Shown here piece after piece: positions 17,524 to 29,181 of a stretch of 64,000 nucleotides of DNA. Made by a program: the position numbers and the translations under genes. The notes below the pieces were generated by a model. That model was not told where the DNA came from and ran no database searches. It worked only from the letters and a program-made list of their open reading frames with translations. The stretch comes from Natronococcus amylolyticus DSM 10524 (GTDB taxonomy: Archaea > Halobacteriota > Halobacteria > Halobacteriales > Natrialbaceae): NCBI RefSeq assembly GCF_000337675.1, contig NZ_AOIB01000027.1, positions 1-64,000 on the forward strand, read 5' to 3'. Every line of letters starts with the position of its first letter. The first letter of the stretch is position 1.

Positions 17524-17747
17524 TGTCGTCGAGTATCAGACGGGCGCTAATAGCCCTTCCGTAAATATGGGCCAATATTATTCGCATAGGGGAATATAGT
17601 CCCAGCCTAATTGCGGATTCGAAAGCTACAACGTTCGATAGAACCGTGCGATCGGGCGAGGCGCCCACAGGACGTCTTGCCAGGGTTGTGGACAGGGGCA
17701 GCGAATCGAAAGGGAGGAACCATTTGCCCCGTCGGCGTACTTCCCCT

Positions 17748-18491
17748 ATGGGCATTCGTCTCGACGACGTCAACAGGCGCATCATCCACGCGCTGATGCA
17801 GGACGCACGGAACACCTCGGCTCCGACGATCGCCGAGGACGTGGGCGTCTCGCCGGCGACGATCCGAAACCGGATCGACCAGCTGGAGAACGCGGGCGTC
17901 ATCCGTGGCTACCACGCGAACGTCGACTTCGAAGCGGCGGACGAGATGCTCACGACGCTGTACACGGCGACGGCCCCGATCGAGGAGCGCCCGCGGCTCG
18001 CCCAGCAGGCGCGAACGATCCCCGGCGTCGTCAACGTTCGCGAGTTCGTGGCGGGCGAGAAGAACCTCCACGTCCTCGCTACCGGACCGGACGTCGAGGC
18101 GCTGAACGACGTCGCCCGCGAGCTGACGAAACTCGGCCTCGAGATCGACGACGAGAAGCTCGTCCGGACCGAGCAGTTTCAGGCCTACCACGCCTTCGGA
18201 CCCGAGGAAACCCACCAGCAGTTCTCGGACTACATCAGCCTCGCGGGCGGGAACGAGGTCGTCGAGATCACCGTCGACGACGACGCGCCGATCGTTGGCA
18301 AGTCGCTGGAACGGGCCGACGACGAGGGACTGCTCGAGGACGACACGCTCGTGGTTTCGATCGAGCGAACCGACGACGTCCTGACGCCGACGGGCAGCAC
18401 CGAGGTTCGCGCCGGCGACATCCTGACGGTCCTCTCCCGAAGCGACTTCGACGAGTCGGCTCTGCGAGCGTTCGAGGGGGTCGGCAACTAA
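17748..18491 (+). CDS. Lrp/AsnC-type regulator fused to a TrkA-C (RCK_C) domain
   Basis: This 247-residue protein has an Lrp helix-turn-helix at about residues 5-58 (DVNRRIIHALMQDARNTSAP, VSPATIRNRIDQLENAGVI), an Lrp-like alpha/beta middle (about 60-150), and a C-terminal RCK_C domain from about residue 165 (VVEITVDDDAPIVGKSLERA, ending LTVLSRSD). RCK_C domains in Ktr/Cpa transport proteins bind small ligands, including c-di-AMP in bacteria. Coupling one to a DNA-binding domain, divergent from a channel that carries the same domain, suggests it senses the same ligand and controls cation transport. The start at 17748 is chosen because conserved HTH sequence begins there. Ligand and targets are inference. 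Confidence 0.87.
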   Translation: MGIRLDDVNRRIIHALMQDARNTSAPTIAEDVGVSPATIRNRIDQLENAGVIRGYHANVDFEAADEMLTTLYTATAPIEERPRLAQQARTIPGVVNVREFVAGEKNLHVLATGPDVEALNDVARELTKLGLEIDDEKLVRTEQFQAYHAFGPEETHQQFSDYISLAGGNEVVEITVDDDAPIVGKSLERADDEGLLEDDTLVVSIERTDDVLTPTGSTEVRAGDILTVLSRSDFDESALRAFEGVGN

Positions 18492-18954: not shown

Positions 18955-21237
18955 CTACGCCGAGAGCCGTTCGGCGACCGCCTCGGTGACCTTCCAGTGG
19001 GTCTCGTACGGCCCGCGGACCATTATAACGTTGCCGTCGGTCTGCTCCTGGACCGTCTCGGCGATCGAGCCGTACAGGATCTTCGAGACGCTGCTCTTCT
19101 CCGAGACGCCCGCGCAGATCGTGTCATAGCTATCGACCTCCTCGAGGATCGCCGACTGCGCGTCCTCGGAGATGAGAACCTTGCTCTCGTAGTTCTCCGG
19201 CTCGAGGCCGGCCGTCTCCGCGATGTCTTCGATCACGGCCTCACCGCGCTCGACTGGATCGTCGTCCTCGTCTCCGTCGCCGGGCGACTGGACGTTCAGC
19301 AGCGTCGGCGTCGTTCCCGAGAGCGTCGCGAACTCGGCCGCGCGCCGCGCAGCCACCGGCGCGTGCGGACCGGGGCCGGCGAGCGCGACGACGTCGCCGA
19401 TCTCGTCGCGTCGGAGGTTGGCGATCGTCACGTCACACGGAGCGTTTTTCAGCACCGGGTCGATCGTCGATCCGAAGATGAACTCCTTCGTCCCCCGGCC
19501 GTGTCCGCGGTCGCCGAGTACCACCTGGTCGGCGGCTTCCTCCTCGAGCACCGTCAGCAGCGTCTGGCCGATGTCGCGTCCGAGGATCGCCCGCGTCCGC
19601 AGACTGATGTCGAGATCGGCGGCCGCCTCGCGGGCGCTTTCGAGCAGTTCGCGCTGCGTTTCGACGCGTTGCTCCTCGAACTCGAGTTCCTGCTCGAGGG
19701 CCGTCTGGGTCGGCACCCGGGTGATGTTGACGGCGACGATCTCCGGCGTTTCGCCCTCGGAGTGGGTCCGCGCGCTGACCGCGGCGAGCCGGAGCAGGTT
19801 CTTCTGAGTTTCTGGGTTCGCGATCGGAACGATGACCCTGTACCGTTCCTCGTCGATGTCGAGGCTGCTCCCCTCCGAACCGCTGACGATTGCGTCGCCG
19901 ACGAGGCTCTGATCGATATCCTGGCGTCGAGCGTACAGGAAGTACCAGACGATCCCGAGGACGATGATTCCAATCCCGATTCCAATGACGGCGAGGTTCA
20001 TCTGTGTGATGACCAGCACCGAGAGCGCGATGCCGGCGATCGGTACCCACGGATAGAGGACGCTCGGGATCTCGAAGTCCGGCTCGTAGTCCTCCGGCTC
20101 CGCGCGCCGGATGACGACGACGGCGGCGTGGACCAGCGAGTATGCGATCAGGAAGCTGAAGCTGGCTACCTCCGCCAGCACCTCGATGATCGCATCCACC
20201 TGCAGGCCGGCAGCGACCAGCAGGCCGGTGAGGAGTCCGGTCGCGATGACCGCCCGGTGGGGCGTTCGGAACCGGCTGTGGGTCGTGTTCAGCCAGTCGT
20301 GCATCAGGTTGTCCCGCCCCATCGCAAAGACGACCCGCGCCGCGGCGAGCACCGACGAGTTCGAACTCGAGATCGCCGCCAGCGCCGCGGCGGCGACGAT
20401 CGCGGCGACGCCGGCTGCACCCATCGACACCTCGGCGACGTCACCGACCGGGACGAGCGAGTCACCCAGTTCGTCGAACGGGACGACCCCAGTACTGACG
20501 ATCATGACGACCACGTACAGCAGGGTCACCGAGACGACCGAGAGGATCATCGTCAGCGGGATGTTCTTGCCCGGATTCTTGACCTCCTCGGCGACGGTCG
20601 CGATGATCTCGAAACCGAGGAACGTGACGAAGACGAGTCCGGTCGTCGCGATGATCCCGCTCGGCCCCGTCGGCGCGAACGGCTCGAGGTTCGCAGCGTC
20701 GATGTAGAAGAAGCCGACGACGAGGTAGACGATGATCACGACGAGCTCCAGCCCGATCATGATGTTCTGGAACGACCCCGACTCCTCCGTTCCGTAGTAG
20801 TTGACACCGACGAGCAATGCGAGGCCGAGCAGGCCGAACAGAACTACCAGTGCTCGCCCGCTGAGAAGCGGGATCGGCTCGACGATGTACTGGCCGAACC
20901 CGATCATGTAGAACGCGCTCGCGAACATCAGCCCCGTCCACATCCCCCAGCCGACGATGCTGCCGAAGAGGCTGCCGAGCGCGCGGTTGACGTAGTGATA
21001 GCTGCCGCCGGCGATCGGCATCCCGGTCGCCAGCTCGGATAGCGAGATCGCCGCGAGCAGGGCGGCGAGTCCGGCGATCGCGAAGGAGAGTGCACTCGCC
21101 GGGCCAGCGCCCTCCGCGGCGATTCCGGGGAGAATAAAGATGCCGGCGCCGATCATCGTCCCGCCGCCCATCGTCATCGCCTCGGTGAAGCCGAGGTTCC
21201 GGGCGAGTTCGCCTTCGCTGTCGCTCACGAGTACCAC
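18955..21237 (-). CDS. APC-superfamily amino-acid/cation permease fused to two UspA domains
   Basis: This 760-residue protein begins with an APC permease (about residues 1-440, twelve predicted TMs) showing the family's TM1 GGGTMIGAGIFILPG and the TM6-8 segment FLGFEIIATVAEEVKNP. Two UspA domains follow. The first (about 460-615) has the ATP-binding pattern GDRGHGRGTKEFIFGSTID; the second (about 618-755) has a degenerate version GVSEKSSVSKILYGSIAET. APC-Usp fusions are typical of haloarchaea and are thought to regulate uptake by nucleotide or stress signals. The substrate is unknown. It lies within the cation-transport block and is transcribed away from the first antiporter pair. Confidence 0.92.
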   Translation of the reverse strand: MVLVSDSEGELARNLGFTEAMTMGGGTMIGAGIFILPGIAAEGAGPASALSFAIAGLAALLAAISLSELATGMPIAGGSYHYVNRALGSLFGSIVGWGMWTGLMFASAFYMIGFGQYIVEPIPLLSGRALVVLFGLLGLALLVGVNYYGTEESGSFQNIMIGLELVVIIVYLVVGFFYIDAANLEPFAPTGPSGIIATTGLVFVTFLGFEIIATVAEEVKNPGKNIPLTMILSVVSVTLLYVVVMIVSTGVVPFDELGDSLVPVGDVAEVSMGAAGVAAIVAAAALAAISSSNSSVLAAARVVFAMGRDNLMHDWLNTTHSRFRTPHRAVIATGLLTGLLVAAGLQVDAIIEVLAEVASFSFLIAYSLVHAAVVVIRRAEPEDYEPDFEIPSVLYPWVPIAGIALSVLVITQMNLAVIGIGIGIIVLGIVWYFLYARRQDIDQSLVGDAIVSGSEGSSLDIDEERYRVIVPIANPETQKNLLRLAAVSARTHSEGETPEIVAVNITRVPTQTALEQELEFEEQRVETQRELLESAREAAADLDISLRTRAILGRDIGQTLLTVLEEEAADQVVLGDRGHGRGTKEFIFGSTIDPVLKNAPCDVTIANLRRDEIGDVVALAGPGPHAPVAARRAAEFATLSGTTPTLLNVQSPGDGDEDDDPVERGEAVIEDIAETAGLEPENYESKVLISEDAQSAILEEVDSYDTICAGVSEKSSVSKILYGSIAETVQEQTDGNVIMVRGPYETHWKVTEAVAERLSA

Positions 21238-21408
21238 CTACCCGAGACGGGAGTCGGGCGAGCCGCAGTTGTTAGATTTCGATCCGTCGCGCCGCGTATC
21301 AGCCGTAGGGAGCGGTGAGCGAACGGCACGAGAGAACAACGACCGAACTCAGACAATGACACAGTGGGTCAACAGTAGGTATTCCGGATAAATACGTTCG
21401 GACTCGTA

Positions 21409-21531
21409 ATGTGCAAGCGGTGAACGACGACCGCCGATCTGGATACGGCGATTTTCCGAAGAACGTGCGGCTGCGCCCGGCGAACTCCTCGTGAGAGATC
21501 TCGTCGGTAAGCAGCGCGGCCAGCACTGCGA
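21409..21531 (-). pseudogene. Duplicated C-terminal tail of an antiporter (relic)
   Basis: The minus strand encodes LAALLTDEISHEEFAGRS and RTFFGKSPYPD, nearly the tail of the antiporter gene at 25809-27470 (LEALLTEEISHEEFVGRS, RTFFEDPPYPD). DNA similarity extends past the stop into the shared AATGTGCAAGCGG (21409 here, 25790 there). No transporter body is attached, so this is a relic. The rest of the 21238-21745 gap holds a 22-bp match to the IS6 relic (around 21622) and nothing else I can identify. Confidence 0.75.
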
Positions 21532-21745: not shown

Positions 21746-23500
21746 ATGGTCGACGTCGGCCTCGCGAGTGATGTAGCTATTATCCTTGTCGCTGCTGCAC
21801 TCGTCGGGGTTCTTGCGGTTCGATTGGGACAGCCGACGATCATCGGATATATTCTTACCGGCGTCGTGATCGGCCCGGTCGGACTCGGACTCGTAGAGCC
21901 AAGCATCATTACGGACACGATGGCCGAACTCGGTCTCGCGTTTCTGTTGTTTTTGCTCGGCATCAAGATGCGAATCGACGAAATCCGCCATCTCATCGCA
22001 CCGATTGTCAAGATCTCGATTCCACAGATGGTCGCGGTCGGAGCTGTTGGGTTCGGTTTTGCAGTCCTCCTCCCGTTTTCGTTCGAGGAGGCGGTGATCA
22101 TCGGGCTGGCCGTGGTGTACAGTTCGACGGCCGTCGTGATCAAAATGCTCAACGACAAGGGCGAGGCGACGTCGCTGCACGGCAAGATCGACGTCGGCGT
22201 ACTCCTCGCCCAGGACATCGTCGTCGTCATTATTCTCGCGGTGCTGGCCGCAGGCCGGCCCGACGGTGTCGCCGACGTCGCGGTAACACTCGGAATCGTG
22301 ATGGTGCTCGTCACGATCACTACCGTCGCGGCGATCGCCGCCTCCAGATACGTGCTCCCGTCGCTCTTTAGACAAATCGCCGACGATACGAGGCTGCTCT
22401 TTCTCGTCGCTATCTCGTGGCTCTTTCTGTTCGTTCTCGTCTCCGACCAGATCAACCTCATCCTGTCACCGATCGGGATCGACGCGTACCTCTCCATCGA
22501 GATGGGGGCGTTCCTCGCCGGGCTGGCGATCGCCCAGCTGCCCTACAGCAAGGATCTCCAGGGACTCGTCAACCCGTTGACAGACCTGTTCGTGATGGTG
22601 TTTTTCGTCTCCGTTGCTCTCGACTTCGAAGCAAGCGATCTCCTCGCGTACTGGCAGGAGGCCGTCGTCGTCGCCGTCGGATTGATGATCGTCAAATTTG
22701 TCGTCTTCTTCCTCCTCCTCAACTGGCAGCGGTTCGATCTCGAGACGACGTTCCTCGGCAGCATCGGGATGATCCAGGTCAGCGAGTTCGGGATCGTCGT
22801 CGCCGTCGCTGCGGTCGAGAGCGAGCCGCCGTTTATCGGTCAGGCGGAGCTCGGCTTCATCACCCTCGTCGCGCTGATGACCATGAGCGTCTCGGTGTAC
22901 TTCATCCAGTACAACCGACAGCTGTTCGAGCGCGTGGAGCCGTATCTCTCGCGATGGGAGCAATCCGATCCCGTCCAGCCAGCTGATACGGAGTATCGAA
23001 ACCACGTCGTTGTCATCGGCTACGACGAGATTGCACGCAGGGCGTTGCGAATCCTCGAGGAGCAGTACGACCAGATCGTGGTCATCGACCGAAACGTCGA
23101 GCACGTCGAAGCGATCGAAGACGCGGGATACGATGCGCTGTTCGGTGATTTCAAGTACGCGAAGATTCGCAAGGACGCCGGCGTGAAGTACGCCGACTTC
23201 GTGTTCTCGTCGTCGGATCAGGTGGAGATCAACGAAATATTGCTCAGAGAGACGACGGAGGAAACGACGGTATTCGTCGAGGCCAGGACTGTCGAGGAGG
23301 CAGCGCAGTTGTACGATGCTGGCGCCGAGTACGTCGTTCTGGCCCCGCAGCTCGGCATCGCACAGTTCATCGAGTACCTCGAGTCGTACGTCGGGGACAG
23401 ATCGACCTTCGACCGAGAGATCGCTGCCGACATGGAGCTGTTGCGAAGCGGGCAGCTGTTCCCCGACATCACGGACCGGGTGGGTGGTGACGATGACTGA
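21746..23500 (+). CDS. CPA2-family cation:proton antiporter with RCK domains (pair A, first gene)
   Basis: This 584-residue protein has about twelve TMs (residues about 8-385) of the KefB/NapA fold, including GYILTGVVIGPVGLGLV, the KefC-like acidic motif DVGVLLAQDIVVV (Gln-Asp) and EMGAFLAGLAIAQLPY. A TrkA-N domain (about 415-530) and a short tail follow. The nucleotide-binding loop reads VVIGYDEIARRAL, so the GxGxxG is lost. It probably exchanges K+ or Na+ for H+. The downstream antiporter gene starts within its last codons (8-nt overlap, ATGACTGA), so both are likely translated together and may form one transporter. Confidence 0.9.
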   Translation: MVDVGLASDVAIILVAAALVGVLAVRLGQPTIIGYILTGVVIGPVGLGLVEPSIITDTMAELGLAFLLFLLGIKMRIDEIRHLIAPIVKISIPQMVAVGAVGFGFAVLLPFSFEEAVIIGLAVVYSSTAVVIKMLNDKGEATSLHGKIDVGVLLAQDIVVVIILAVLAAGRPDGVADVAVTLGIVMVLVTITTVAAIAASRYVLPSLFRQIADDTRLLFLVAISWLFLFVLVSDQINLILSPIGIDAYLSIEMGAFLAGLAIAQLPYSKDLQGLVNPLTDLFVMVFFVSVALDFEASDLLAYWQEAVVVAVGLMIVKFVVFFLLLNWQRFDLETTFLGSIGMIQVSEFGIVVAVAAVESEPPFIGQAELGFITLVALMTMSVSVYFIQYNRQLFERVEPYLSRWEQSDPVQPADTEYRNHVVVIGYDEIARRALRILEEQYDQIVVIDRNVEHVEAIEDAGYDALFGDFKYAKIRKDAGVKYADFVFSSSDQVEINEILLRETTEETTVFVEARTVEEAAQLYDAGAEYVVLAPQLGIAQFIEYLESYVGDRSTFDREIAADMELLRSGQLFPDITDRVGGDDD

Positions 23501-25295
23501 CGTCGCACTGCTCACCGCGATGGCGATTCTGTTCGTCGTCGCCGGCCCAGTACTGCTGATCGCGAAGGGGTTGCGGCTGTCGATCATCCCATCGCTCATC
23601 CTGGCCGGACTGTTCGTCGGACAGCTGGGTCTCATCGACGGGGCGCTCATGCTCGAGCTCGCCCGGCTCGGAATCGCGTTTCTCGTCTTCACCTTCAGTG
23701 TACAGATCCACACCGAAGAGGTTCGGACGGTCGTCTCGAACACCGAAGTCGTCGCGATCGTTCAGGCGTTCGTCCTCGGTGTGCTCGGAATCCTCTTCGC
23801 GCTCGTGGTCGGCATCGTCCTGGAGTCCGGCGTCGTCCCGGGCGTAGGGCTCGAAGAGCCAGTGACGGTCGAACAGGCGCTTTTCGTCGGGATCGCGGCC
23901 GCGCTCTCGTCGGTGATCGTCGGAACCGCGCTGTTCGCCAAACCGCAGTCCGACATCGTTCACGACTACCTCTCGAGCGAGATCGATTCGGTCAGCGACT
24001 TCCTGGCGGTGTTCGTCTTGCTCGTCGTCAGCGCCGGCACCTTCGCGCTGGATCCGATCGCGACGCAGTTCGGGTACGGCGTCATGCTTCTCGGTGCGGC
24101 GATCGTCATCAACCGCTATCTGTTCGGGATCATGGAACGGCTCGCCAGCGGTTCGGACGAGGCGATGCTCATTAGCATCGTGGCGCTGTTGATCGTCTTC
24201 CTCGCTGCCGCGGACTTCCTCGATACCTCTATCGTCGTCGGCGCGTTCGCCGCCGGGCTGGCAGTCAGGGATAACCCCGTCGAGTACTCGGAGGTGTTCA
24301 ACGGATTGAACTCGATACAGGAGTTCTTCGTCGCGATCTTCTTCGCCACGGTCGGGGCGCTAGTGACGCTCCCCTCGCCGCTGGCGGTAACGGCCGATCC
24401 ATCGGCGACGCTCGGCCCCTTCGTCCCGGTCGCCACGATCGCGCTCGGGCTCGTGGTGTTGACGGTCGTGATCAAACCGATCGTCATCGGCGTTCTGCTC
24501 GTGTACAACGGGTACGACAGGCGGTCGGCGACGGTTACAGGGCTCACTCTGGACCACGTTGGCGCGTTCAGCGTCATCGTGGCTATCGAGGCGCTCATTC
24601 TCGGGCTCCTGATCGAGCCGGTGTTCGAGGGGATCATCCTCGCAGCAGCAGTGTCGATGATCCTATCGAATCTTACCCACACGTACGACGAGGAAATCTA
24701 CGGACTCCTGGTCGATCGAGGCTGGCTCGGTCAGCCGTATCACGATGTCGACGACTGGAACTCCGTCCCAGAGGACATGTCCGATCACGTCGTTATCGTT
24801 GGGTACGGCCGACACGGCCGACGACTCGTCGAGTTCTGCGAGGAGGTCGACCAGCCGTACGTCGTGATCGAGAACAATCCGCAGGCACTGCCCGATCTCC
24901 GGGCTAACTGCGGTGCCTACGTGTTCGCCGACGCGATCGAGCCGGAAACGGCGGACGCATCCAACCTCGAAGCGGCGCGGCTGGTTATCTCCACAGCCGA
25001 CTCGAAACCCCTCACGGAGCACTTCCTGTCGTTTTCCGATACCGTCGACGTCATCGTCCGAACCAGGGAGTTGCCGATGGCCGCCGACCTCATCGAGCGA
25101 GGGGCCACCTACGTCATCGTCCCGGACCTCCTCGCGGCCGACCAGCTCGCCGACAGCCTTGGAGCACTCTTGAACGGAGAGTACGATCCCGACGAACTAC
25201 GGGCAGAGAGTATGAGCGAACTAAACCCCGAACGTGCACCACCTCGTTTTTCCACCGCGGAATCGACATCGCACACCGGAGAGCCCAACAGGTAA
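23493..25295 (+). CDS. CPA2-family cation:proton antiporter with RCK domains (pair A, second gene)
   Basis: This 600-residue protein starts at ATG 23493, inside the previous gene. Residues about 5-400 form the antiporter membrane domain (LSIIPSLILAGLFVGQLGLI; VVGAFAAGLAVRDNP), with Ser-Asp in EIDSVSDFLAVFV where KefC-type proteins have Gln-Asp. A TrkA-N domain with an intact nucleotide loop, VVIVGYGRHGRRLVEF, starts at about residue 430; of the four antiporters here it is the only one with a complete GxGxxG. The C-terminal 40 residues are low complexity. The pairing suggests that this subunit binds nucleotide for both partners, which is inference. Confidence 0.9.
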   Translation: MTDVALLTAMAILFVVAGPVLLIAKGLRLSIIPSLILAGLFVGQLGLIDGALMLELARLGIAFLVFTFSVQIHTEEVRTVVSNTEVVAIVQAFVLGVLGILFALVVGIVLESGVVPGVGLEEPVTVEQALFVGIAAALSSVIVGTALFAKPQSDIVHDYLSSEIDSVSDFLAVFVLLVVSAGTFALDPIATQFGYGVMLLGAAIVINRYLFGIMERLASGSDEAMLISIVALLIVFLAAADFLDTSIVVGAFAAGLAVRDNPVEYSEVFNGLNSIQEFFVAIFFATVGALVTLPSPLAVTADPSATLGPFVPVATIALGLVVLTVVIKPIVIGVLLVYNGYDRRSATVTGLTLDHVGAFSVIVAIEALILGLLIEPVFEGIILAAAVSMILSNLTHTYDEEIYGLLVDRGWLGQPYHDVDDWNSVPEDMSDHVVIVGYGRHGRRLVEFCEEVDQPYVVIENNPQALPDLRANCGAYVFADAIEPETADASNLEAARLVISTADSKPLTEHFLSFSDTVDVIVRTRELPMAADLIERGATYVIVPDLLAADQLADSLGALLNGEYDPDELRAESMSELNPERAPPRFSTAESTSHTGEPNR

Positions 25296-25435
25296 TCTTC
25301 TCCGCCCGAACGTCTGGTATCGACTTTATCAGCGTATAAGTGGAAGCAACGACAGGTACGTCTTCTCTCCTCACGAGTCGCTCAAACACAATGAGACAGA
25401 TTAGGCGTGGAACACCGTGTAGTGGAGTCGTCTGT

Positions 25436-25790
25436 CTAAACTGGGATTCTCTCCGACCGTTCTGTCGGCATCAACTCTCGGCTGAGCAGCGTCTGTACGG
25501 TGCTCCGTGGTTTGTCTCTCAGAGCGTACCGCGACGTTTTGGTGCCCACCTACGAGTGACGAAAACGCTCGAGTCGGATGTCGAGCGTACGAAACCACGT
25601 TTCGACGAGGTTTCGTTCGACGGAGTCTCCTCGGTCGTTCAACCCGAACCGGACAGGGACAGTCCGATAGCCAAACTGAGCGACGAAAAACGCTGCCTCG
25701 GAGGGATCGTGTTTCTCGCGGAGTCCTACAGGAACGCAGCCGCCTGATCGGCGCCGTGGCGTCCGAACACCTGGACGTCGAGACGACTCC
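25436..25790 (-). mobile_element. Degenerate IS6-type (haloarchaeal ISH) transposase relic
   Basis: Reading leftward, the minus strand encodes LDVQVFGRHGADQAAAFL, then a frameshift, then GLREKHDPSEAAFFVAQFGY, RNLVETWFRTLDIRLERFRHS, an in-frame TAG, and VGTKTSRYALRD. This is the order of the DDE core in haloarchaeal IS6-family transposases (FxRxG-TD, then FLVD-x-GY, then RN-E-WF-RTL-x-R-DRF). With one frameshift and one stop it is dead. I found no terminal repeats. It fills most of the 25296-25808 gap between the two antiporter pairs; AATGTGCAAGCGG at its right end also flanks the tail relic at 21.4 kb. Confidence 0.72.
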
Positions 25791-25808
25791 CAATGTGCAA
25801 GCGGGACG

Positions 25809-27470
25809 CTACGATTCCTGATCCGGGTACGGCGGATCCTCGAAGAACGTCCGGCTGCGCCCGACGAACTCCTCGTGAGAGATCTCCTCGGTGAGCAGCG
25901 CCTCGAGGTCGTCGCCGGCCCGCTCGGCCGTGATCGCTTCGGGGTAGACGACGCCGGTTGCCTCACGCTCGAGGAACGCCTCGGCGTCGTCGGCCGAATC
26001 GATCCGGACGACCCGCGGCGTGTCGCCCTCGAGGTCGGCGATCGCCTCGGCGCGGGCGAGTTCGGGCGACAGCGAGACGACGAGCGCCGCCGTCTCGAGT
26101 CCCGCCACGTCCCAGGTCCGGTCGTTCAGCACGTCGCCGTAGACGTAGTTGTCGGCGAGTTCGCGGACGTCGTCGAACCGCGCCGGGTTGTCCTCGACGA
26201 CCACGATCGGTCGATCGAGCTCCGAGCAGGCCTCGAGGACGTGCTCGCCGCCGTGTTCGAAGTCGGTGATGATGACGTGATCCTCGAGTCCCTCGTCGAC
26301 GTCCGTTTTCTCGCCGATCGGTTTGCCGACTGCGCGGACGACTCCGCGCTCGCGGAGCCAGCCGTTGATCTCCTCGGCGTTGCGGGCTGTGTACGTCGCC
26401 GCGATCCACGTGATCGCCGCCGAGAGCACGATCGCGTCGAACAGCGGCCGCGCGATCGTCTCGGCGACGAGCGCCTCGATCGCGATGAAGAGACTGAAGA
26501 CGCTGACCTGGTCGAGCGTTAGCCCCGTCATGACGGCCGTCCGCCCGTCGAATCCCCCGCGGAGCAGGAGGAATCCGACGATCAGCGGGTTGAGGACCAG
26601 CGTGGCGAGGACGAGCACGACCGTGTATCCGACCGTCTCGAGCGTCGGGATCGCCAGCAGGGCGCCGACGGTGACGAAGAAGATCGGCGTGAAGAAGTCC
26701 TCGAGGTCGTCGATCGTGTCGACCAGCTCGAGCGAGTGGGGGTAGTCGTCGGCGACGGCGATTCCGGCGGCGAACGCGCCGACGATAATCGAGAGGTTCG
26801 CGGCTTCGGCGAGCGCGATGAAGCCGATCGCGAGCGTGATGCCGAACAGCATCATCACCTCGGAATCTCCCTGAAGCCTGCTCGTGATGCGGTGGAAGGC
26901 GAGGTATCGCACGCCGAGTGCGAGCGCGAACAGCCCCGCGCCGACCGCGAGCTGGGTGGGAGCCGGTTCGGCCGCGTAGACGAACGCGCTCAGACCCAAC
27001 ACGACCAGAACGCCGAGCAGATCCTCCGTGAAGTGGATCGATTCGGCGACCTGCGCGTGGGTCGGTCGAACGCCCTCGTCGGTGTCGAGGTAGCTGGTCG
27101 CGACGAGCGACGAGCTCAGGGCCGCGGCGACGCCGAAGTAGACGGCGTTCAGCGGATCGACGCCGAACGCGAGTGCGCCGGCGACGGCCAGACCGCCGAC
27201 GACGACCGCCTGCACGACGCCGATGGCGACGCTCGTTCGCCCGGTCGACCGGAACGCCTCGAGGTCGACGTGGGTGCCAAAGAGGAAGACGAGGAAGGCG
27301 ATTCCCCACTGGGCCAGATCGAGGAGTTCGCTCTCGTCGATCGCGAAGCCGATGAGAATCCCGGCCAGCAGGTAAAACGGCAGGACGGGGAGATCCCGCT
27401 GGGCGGCGACGAGCAACAGTCCCGCCGCGACGGTGAAGATCAACGTCAGCGCGAACAGGATCTCATACAT
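25809..27470 (-). CDS. CPA2-family cation:proton antiporter with RCK domain (pair B, second gene)
   Basis: This 553-residue protein starts MYEILFALTLIFTVAAGLLL. The antiporter domain (about residues 3-375) includes LPVLPFYLLAGILIGFAI, an Asp-containing SIHFTEDLLGVLVVL (Glu-Asp at the motif position) and SIIVGAFAAGIAVADDYP. The RCK-like domain (about 400-510) has VIITDFEHGGEHV in place of GxGxxG, so nucleotide binding is doubtful. The start at 27470 overlaps the upstream antiporter gene by 8 nt (ATGTATGA). Its tail, LEALLTEEISHEEF, is the source or sibling of the relic at 21.4 kb. Confidence 0.9.
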   Translation of the reverse strand: MYEILFALTLIFTVAAGLLLVAAQRDLPVLPFYLLAGILIGFAIDESELLDLAQWGIAFLVFLFGTHVDLEAFRSTGRTSVAIGVVQAVVVGGLAVAGALAFGVDPLNAVYFGVAAALSSSLVATSYLDTDEGVRPTHAQVAESIHFTEDLLGVLVVLGLSAFVYAAEPAPTQLAVGAGLFALALGVRYLAFHRITSRLQGDSEVMMLFGITLAIGFIALAEAANLSIIVGAFAAGIAVADDYPHSLELVDTIDDLEDFFTPIFFVTVGALLAIPTLETVGYTVVLVLATLVLNPLIVGFLLLRGGFDGRTAVMTGLTLDQVSVFSLFIAIEALVAETIARPLFDAIVLSAAITWIAATYTARNAEEINGWLRERGVVRAVGKPIGEKTDVDEGLEDHVIITDFEHGGEHVLEACSELDRPIVVVEDNPARFDDVRELADNYVYGDVLNDRTWDVAGLETAALVVSLSPELARAEAIADLEGDTPRVVRIDSADDAEAFLEREATGVVYPEAITAERAGDDLEALLTEEISHEEFVGRSRTFFEDPPYPDQES

Positions 27471-29181
27471 CGGTCCCACCTCCGGTGCTGGCGGGTTCGC
27501 CCGTCCGTCTCGGCTCGCTCCGGGCCCGAGCGTTGAGTTCCTCGAGGCGGTCCTCGAACGCCTCACGGTCGTCGAGCGTCCCGAGCAGGTCCGCAAGCTC
27601 CTCGCCCATGAGCCCGCGCTCCATGACCACGTAGTCCGCCCCGGCCTCGGTGAGCCGCGTGGCTTCGAGCTCGGTGTTGGCTCGCACGATCGAAAGCGTC
27701 TCCGGGGACTCCTCGACGAGGCGCTCGTTGACGTCGACCCGGTCGGCGACGGTGATCAGGACCTCCGCGCCGGCGAGGTTCGCCTCCTGGCGGATCTCGC
27801 CGTGTCTGGCGTTGCCGAAGATGAAGCCGTGGTCGGCCTCCTTGAGCTCCTCGACGTGTTCGGCCCGGTCCTCGACGACGACGATCTCCTCGACGTGTTC
27901 GTCCAGTACGTTCATGAGTTCGTTCGAGAGTCGGTTGTAGCCGACGACGACGGCGTGGTTCTCGTACTCGACCGGCTCGGCCTGAATGGGGTTGTCCCGC
28001 TCGAAGCGCTCGAGGTACGGCTTGACGTACGCGTAGATCTCGCGGTTGTACCGGACGTAGTACGTCGAGATCGGCATCGTGACGAGCGCCATCAGGCTGA
28101 AGAAGCCGAGCAGCCCCTCCTCGATGAACCCTTCCTCGACGGCGAGGGCACCCAGGACGACCGAGAACTCGCTGACCTGCAGCATCGAGATCGTTCCCAG
28201 GAAGGAGGTCTCCATGTCGAAGTTCTGGCTGTAGAACAGCCCGAAGACGATGAAGAAATTGATGACGATCAGGGCGACGCTCGCGATCAGCGCCTCCTGC
28301 CAGTAGGCGAGCAGCTGGTCGACCTCCATCTGGAGGGCGATGCTCGCGAAGAAGACCGCGATGAAGAAGTTCGTCGCGGGTCGCATCCGCTCTTTGAGCT
28401 CCGTGCTGTACGGAAGCTGTGCGAGCGCGAGCCCTGCGAGGAACGCGCCGATCTCGACGGAGAGGTCGAGCATTTCAGCAGTGAAGATAAAGAGGAACGC
28501 CCAGGCGATGCCGACCGTAAAGAGCGTGCTCTTGTTCGCCGCGCTGGCCCGCAACAGCGCGGGCAGGAAGTACTTGCTCGCGAGGTAGGCGACGACGCCG
28601 ATGACGCCCATCAGGAACAGCACCTGTCCGATGTTGAACGCGACCTCGGTGACGTCGTCGACGGTGCCGACGGCCAGTATCGCCAGCGCCATCACCAGGT
28701 AGATGTCCTGGAAGATGAGGATCCCGACGTCGGTCTTGCCGTACAGCGTCTTCAGGTCGTCCTTGTCACCGAGCACCTTGACGATGATCGGCGTCGCGCC
28801 GAACGTCGTCGCCAGCGCGATCATCAGCGATTGATAGAGCGTAAAGCCGAGCAAGAGTGCAACGCTCGTCGAGGCGATCGCCTGCAGTATCGCCTGGCCG
28901 ACCGCGATCGCCCCGACGGGACGCATGATCTCCTTGATGTCGTCGAAGCGCATCTCGATCCCGAGCAGAAACAGCAGGAACCCGAGTCCGAGTTCGGCCA
29001 TCACCTCGATCAACTGATCCTCGGCGACGATCCCGAGGCCGATCGGCCCGACGACGACGCCGGTCATGATGTAGGCAACGATCGTCGGCTGCCCCGTCAG
29101 TCGGGCGATATAACTCAGTAGCGTTGCCGCGGCGATCAACAGCGCAAAGTCTGCCGCGAGTGCGATCCCTCCGGTCGGCAT
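27463..29181 (-). CDS. CPA2-family cation:proton antiporter with RCK domains (pair B, first gene)
   Basis: This 572-residue paralogue of the 21746-23500 product has a twelve-TM antiporter domain with VAYIMTGVVVGPIGLGIV, DVGILIFQDIYLV (Gln-Asp) and IGAFLAGLALAQLPY, then a TrkA-N-like domain with a degenerate loop VVVGYNRLSNELM. Upstream, GAGGAGG (minus strand, 29189-29195) is a strong Shine-Dalgarno sequence, unusual in this window; it lies inside a 30-codon mini-ORF that ends 3 nt before the ATG. The gene order first-type then second-type, with an 8-nt overlap, is the same as in pair A. Confidence 0.9.
   Translation of the reverse strand: MPTGGIALAADFALLIAAATLLSYIARLTGQPTIVAYIMTGVVVGPIGLGIVAEDQLIEVMAELGLGFLLFLLGIEMRFDDIKEIMRPVGAIAVGQAILQAIASTSVALLLGFTLYQSLMIALATTFGATPIIVKVLGDKDDLKTLYGKTDVGILIFQDIYLVMALAILAVGTVDDVTEVAFNIGQVLFLMGVIGVVAYLASKYFLPALLRASAANKSTLFTVGIAWAFLFIFTAEMLDLSVEIGAFLAGLALAQLPYSTELKERMRPATNFFIAVFFASIALQMEVDQLLAYWQEALIASVALIVINFFIVFGLFYSQNFDMETSFLGTISMLQVSEFSVVLGALAVEEGFIEEGLLGFFSLMALVTMPISTYYVRYNREIYAYVKPYLERFERDNPIQAEPVEYENHAVVVGYNRLSNELMNVLDEHVEEIVVVEDRAEHVEELKEADHGFIFGNARHGEIRQEANLAGAEVLITVADRVDVNERLVEESPETLSIVRANTELEATRLTEAGADYVVMERGLMGEELADLLGTLDDREAFEDRLEELNARARSEPRRTGEPASTGGGTDV

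Follow-up and report, generated by a model that had tools for sequence, protein, structure and literature searches.

Two convergent gene pairs in a 64,000-nucleotide stretch of DNA from Natronococcus amylolyticus DSM 10524 (referred to below as the window) encode members of two sister families of CPA2 proteins with a TrkA_N (RCK) domain. We term these families F, encoded by the first gene of each pair, and S, encoded by the second, and each type was found only beside its partner. Judging from comparison of the sequences, we consider it probable (with a probability of roughly 0.7) that each pair encodes one obligate heteromeric, most likely heterodimeric, CPA2 antiporter. This suggests that a kind of transporter thought to consist of two identical halves has here become one of two different halves. 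We found no earlier description of a paired or heteromeric CPA2 system in the open-access literature, although one may exist elsewhere.

Two families encoded side by side

Pair A (A1 and A2; 21746-25295, plus strand) and pair B (B1 and B2; 25809-29181, minus strand) are convergent, and their features are listed in Table 1. All four proteins matched Na_H_Exchanger (PF00999), with E values from 1e-23 to 2.5e-52 and scores of 84-178 bits against a curated cut-off of 26.2, and all four also matched TrkA_N (PF02254) above its cut-off. PF00999 was matched at ten places in the host genome, six of which are the four window genes and a third F-S pair on another contig (C37). Among the matches listed, the closest named relatives at the locus were Natronococcus sp. 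A-GB1 and A-GB7, with 97% and 92% identity to B2, respectively.

The first-pass annotation had described two pairs on opposite strands, each with an 8-nt overlap, with a QD membrane motif in the first genes, SD or ED in the second, and a GxGxxG nucleotide loop surviving in one protein of the four. The coordinates bear out the pairs and their overlaps, QD was seen in both A1 and B1, and the loop is intact solely in A2. The second genes do carry SD (A2) and ED (B2), but the Ser of SD is specific to this genome, and seven of nine clade members have Asn at that position.

Table 1. Genes, motifs, junctions and a gene relic at the antiporter locus, in positions of the window
Feature	Position	Strand	Remarks
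Decayed B2-type 3' end just upstream of A1	21401..21517	-	81% identical to 25785-25901; encodes ALLTDEISHEEFAGRSRTFFGKSPYPD
A1, F subunit of pair A	21746..23500	+	584 aa; CPA2 domain and degenerate RCK (TrkA_N) domain
A1 Q156-D157	22211-22216	+	QD motif
Shine-Dalgarno-like GGTGGTGA	23483..23490	+	within A1 3' end, before A2 start; cf. family consensus
A1/A2 stop/start overlap, ATGACTGA	23493..23500	+	8 nt
A2, S subunit of pair A	23493..25295	+	600 aa; CPA2 and RCK with intact GxGxxG
A2 loop GYGRHG	24801..24818	+	sole intact GxGxxG nucleotide loop among the four window proteins
B2, S subunit of pair B	25809..27470	-	553 aa; ED; position-8 Asn; loop lost (DFEHGG)
B1/B2 stop/start overlap, ATGTATGA	27463..27470	-	8 nt
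B1, F subunit of pair B	27463..29181	-	572 aa; QD; position-8 Lys replaced by Asn; degenerate loop GYNRLS
Shine-Dalgarno-like GGAGGTGGGA	27474..27483	-	within B1 3' end, before B2 start; cf. family consensus

About 50 haloarchaeal genomes yielded a collection of 108 complete pairs, and in every one of these F preceded S on the same strand. Because many of these loci had been picked through matches to S, the count was redone on 59 haloarchaeal genomes drawn evenly across the class, regardless of pairing. The system was present in 12 of the 59, with 23 F and 23 S genes, and by their coordinates all of these genes (23/23 F, 23/23 S) lay next to their partner, in the order F-S. Within the collection, the two unpaired F genes (L134 and L135) sit at contig ends, and the sole unpaired S gene (L133) is chimeric, joining F to S, and contains a stop codon. 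Comparison of the window with genomes of the same genus gave dN/dS values of about 0.06-0.26 for all four window genes, which indicates that all four are maintained by purifying selection. In most comparisons, amino acid change was faster in S than in F.

In a tree of transmembrane domains containing 33 F, 33 S and, for comparison, 19 single haloarchaeal CPA2 proteins, F formed one clade (support 100/99) and S another (100/100). In this test, which the first-pass annotation had proposed, first genes group with first and second with second, each group having 100% support against the 19 single proteins. When RCK domains alone were used, F remained apart as one clade (100/99); S was one group except that the C-termini of single CPA2 proteins, which are perhaps non-homologous there, fell inside it. 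Separate F and S trees resolved the pair lineages A (9 pairs), A' (29), B (21), C (36), C' (4) and D (9), with window pair A in lineage A and window pair B in lineage B. The two trees agreed in lineage for 107 of the 108 pairs; the remaining pair, L132, forms a long branch.

Pairs of the same type also occur in Nanohaloarchaea (from a scan of named genomes, among the matches listed) and, again among the matches listed, in single MAGs of halophilic bacteria that carry the labels Salinibacteraceae, Gemmatimonadetes and Bacteroidetes, for which binning errors are possible. More distant F-S pairs, with 25-27% identity and a 4-nt overlap, were present in at least five MAGs labelled Verrucomicrobiota. 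In a sample of 145 Verrucomicrobiota genomes the system was found in six, and F adjoined S in 6/6. The named haloarchaeal hosts were mostly haloalkaliphiles, as judged by their names.

AlphaFold2 models of A2 (pLDDT 86.7) and B2 (pLDDT 85.1) adopted the fold of NapA and KefC, in which two broken helices cross, with Z scores of 36 and 37 to NapA and of 34 and 32 to full-length KefC, respectively; for F, the same fold is indicated by a full-length sequence match to KefC (E = 2e-27). KefC, a CPA2 K+/H+ exchanger from E. coli (PDB 8bxg, 8by2 and 9emb), has a C-terminal RCK domain and is a homodimer with a QD site and paired RCK domains (PMC11150392). It shares QD, SEF in TM12 and SSTA in TM5 with F of clades A and A'. 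However, both protomers of KefC come from one gene, whereas the window system comprises two diverged, always paired genes; KefC binds AMP in both RCK domains, whereas F lacks the nucleotide loop; it is gated by glutathione and KefF; and it has a TM11 Lys that is missing from most F and from two S lineages. NapA, a Na+/H+ exchanger from Thermus (PDB 4bwz and 5bz2), resembles both S models in its transmembrane fold and shares its DD pair with S of clade C. Unlike S, it has no RCK domain, and it keeps the TM11 Lys pairing with the first Asp, whereas S of clades B and C has the acid without that Lys. Among solved RCK domains, the one nearest to S in sequence (E = 4e-6) belongs to YbaL, a putative K+ efflux protein of E. 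coli (TrkA_N structure 3fwz), which differs in being a single gene. YbaL was also the best NCBIfam match of A2, but at 87 bits it lay far under the 700-bit equivalog cut-off, and across the KefC, KefB and YbaL equivalogs the best score was 175 bits, against cut-offs of 700-804.

Gene junctions, nucleotide loops and ion sites

The overlap seen in both window pairs goes beyond chance, since it was exactly 8 nt in 90 of the 108 homologous pairs; in the rest the overlap was 4-17 nt, with short gaps in a few. Where the overlap was 8 nt (90 pairs), the junction consensus was GGAGGTGAGATCGATGACTGA, in which a Shine-Dalgarno sequence and the S start both lie within the last codons of F. The junction bases GGTG...CGATG..TGA were common to 90-100% of these 90 pairs, single positions of the GGTG being conserved in 91-99%. 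A strict motif was present in 58 of the 108 pairs, compared with 0.7% of matched windows within F genes. With its start overlapping the F stop, S would be made by translational coupling, and a ribosome-binding site in the last codons of F would favour one-to-one synthesis of F and S.

The nucleotide loops of the window proteins read GYDEIA in A1, GYGRHG in A2, GYNRLS in B1 and DFEHGG in B2. Across the collection, GxGxxG was intact in 0 of 108 F proteins, where the usual form was GxDxxT, and in 84 of the 86 scorable S proteins outside clade B; in S of clade B it was lost, as in B2. Loss of the loop is patterned and not random, i.e., it affects all F and, among S, essentially clade B alone. In Verrucomicrobiota the loops were GMNTLG in F and mostly GYGSAG or similar in S, while S of Nanohaloarchaea had a partial loop, GYDIQG. 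There is an analogy here, between different folds and with no whole homology claimed, to RCK gating rings with unlike halves and to heterodimeric ABC transporters with one degenerate nucleotide site, in that two homologous halves are joined and one of them is without a nucleotide site. In KefC, AMP is bound by both RCK domains and the RCK dimer clamps the transporter (PMC11150392). Unlike KefC, an F/S complex would have at most one nucleotide-binding half.

For the ion site, we used the residue numbering of KefC (PMC11150392) and the CPA motif of PMC6181914, i.e., X6-D7 with Arg or Lys at position 8 (wording in PMC9408914). F had Q6-D7 and the TM12 SEF nearly without exception, and D7 was present in all S and in all F but one. 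The F proteins of clades A and A', including A1, had the Kef pattern SSTA together with the TM11 Lys, while those of clades B, C, C' and D had GATP with Asn replacing this Lys (with one exception in C); B1 accordingly kept QD but had GAT and Asn. Because the TM11 Lys contacts a TM5 Ser in KefC (PMC11150392), the joint change of SSTA and Lys makes structural sense. The Kef-like combination of QD, SST and Lys was found in F of clades A and A', and S differed from it at position 6 in clades A, B and C.

In S, the essential Asp was invariant in 78 aligned sequences, Verrucomicrobiota included, and most lineages kept Q/D/N/E-D, SEF and the crossover motif SS[TS]. The TM12 Glu was lost in 15 of 21 clade B S proteins and in window A2. 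At position 6, S proteins of clades A', C' and D had Gln and most of those of clade A had Asn; the residue was Glu in clade B and Asp in clade C. At position 8, pair A had Lys and pair B Asn, and Asn also occupied this position in all or nearly all F of clades B, C, C' and D, in all S of clade B and in most S of clade C. Position 6 of S was acidic in 100% of cases where the Lys had been lost, compared with 2% where it was kept, and no basic residue that might compensate for the lost Lys was evident in the core. The change from Lys to Asn at position 8 departs from the published CPA motif, so that transport by those subunits is not assured. The model of PMC6181914 associates electrogenic exchange with an acidic residue at position 6, and pair B may therefore differ from pair A in stoichiometry.

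Within its clade, window A2 was unique in having Ser at position 6 and Ala in place of the TM12 Glu, most clade A S proteins having Asn and Glu at these positions. The ion site of S may have changed recently, and in this strain alone.

A probable two-gene antiporter and its alternatives

An F/S complex would be an elevator-mechanism cation/proton antiporter resembling the KefC homodimer, but built from two diverged halves. F would provide a Kef-like QD ion site, essentially unchanged, and S a second carrier domain in which the essential Asp is kept and the neighbouring residue (Gln, Asn, Glu or Asp) varies by pair lineage. As in KefC, the RCK domain of one half would pair with that of the other; nucleotide would be bound in the usual mode by the S half alone, so that each complex would have a single regulatory site. 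This site, too, would be lost in clade B, to which window pair B belongs, and control there would have to differ. Ion or charge stoichiometry probably differs between the pair lineages (A, A', B, C, C' and D), in cells holding molar K+ in saline, often alkaline water, and the ion would be K+ (by the QD motif) or Na+. A more specific proposal is that the halves carry different ion sites, Q-D in F and, in S of clades B and C, an acid pair without the usual Lys, with possibly a different proton stoichiometry, in an obligate heterodimer with one nucleotide switch in S that occurs in Haloarchaea, Nanohaloarchaea and several bacterial phyla. In this full form we put it forward tentatively, as a possibility that we lean somewhat against.

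We judge a heterodimer to be most likely because independent homodimers should sometimes occur apart, and should not lose a regulatory site one-sidedly. F and S might nevertheless be separate homodimers with complementary specificity or stoichiometry, co-expressed from one operon as both are needed together. In each of them the CPA2 domain is complete and includes the essential Asp, both window S proteins model as complete CPA2 folds, and obligate co-expression would give much the same genomic record. KefC, NapA and NHA2 are homodimers, as to our knowledge are the CPA exchangers of known structure. However, no orphan F or S was seen in the 23/23 haloarchaeal and 6/6 Verrucomicrobiota cases, order and overlap have stayed fixed over great divergence, and the RCK loop is always lost in F, so that we regard separate homodimers as unlikely. 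Mutual-information covariation between F and S across 135 non-redundant pairs gave top couplings that were scattered, the effective number of sequences being only 39. No gene that fuses F to S was found.

A different division of labour, with F as sole transporter and S as a non-transporting regulatory or chaperone-like subunit, would fit the near-universal Kef-like QD/SEF of F beside an S that varies at position 6, evolves faster in most comparisons and has in places lost the TM12 Glu. It is harder to reconcile with the invariant essential Asp of S and with the ion-site and crossover motifs retained in most S lineages, and we think it quite improbable.

Since the protomers are identical in homodimeric CPA exchangers, cooperation between them is hard to test; a natural two-gene CPA2 antiporter, in which the ion site of each half could be mutated independently and just one RCK domain binds nucleotide, would offer a direct test. 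In the plasmid records that we checked, F and S were both annotated "cation:proton antiporter", as if independent. Neither was found alone here, however, and a two-gene antiporter would change this annotation. For salt-in halophiles, the pairs point to a diversified system of K+ or Na+ handling.

Age of the window pairs and their surroundings

Pairs A and B lie in different clades, each found in many genomes, which indicates that they split long ago and have been inherited as pairs. On the evidence of the trees they are old paralogues, the lineages appearing to have duplicated as whole units. The first-pass annotation had favoured a duplicated paired CPA2 antiporter over four independent ones. 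The paired origin stands, given the position-wise monophyly and the lack of orphans, but the duplication is old and was not a local copy event. Four independent antiporters are ruled out by the same two results. That a recent local duplication with inversion produced the window pairs is very improbable indeed: the identical overlap length, the convergent layout and the B2-type relic beside A1 might suggest it, but the trees contradict it, in that many other pairs separate clades A and B, each clade spans several genera, and B1 is nearer to the B genes of other species (up to 98% identity) than to A1 (about 41%). The relic, also present in two other Natronococcus genomes, is left over from an earlier rearrangement of the island.

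Where two pairs were neighbours, 21 of 28 cases were convergent; 17 of these were A' facing C and three were A facing B, the latter all of Natronococcus type. At one locus (L078:1547-17816) pairs A', A, C and B stand in a row over about 16 kb, making eight CPA2 genes, and the arrangement in the window may be what is left of such a larger island after trimming.

In a related genome (L133:4032-5747), a clade-B-type pair has collapsed by an in-register deletion into one F/S chimeric gene with a TAG stop. Another haloarchaeon, probably Natronocalculus amylovorans, has an in-frame TAG in F beside an intact S (L129:4353-5522), which could be a sequencing error or natural loss of F.

No third gene was clearly conserved beside the pairs by a crude clustering of ORFs, the list of which contains many spurious GC-rich frames. 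An APC-Usp transporter adjoins 19 pair loci in no fixed orientation; its relative in the window (18955-21237) is an amino acid permease fused to Usp domains. Also near the window antiporters is an AsnC/Lrp-type regulator with a C-terminal TrkA_C domain (17646-18491), a candidate ion-responsive regulator.
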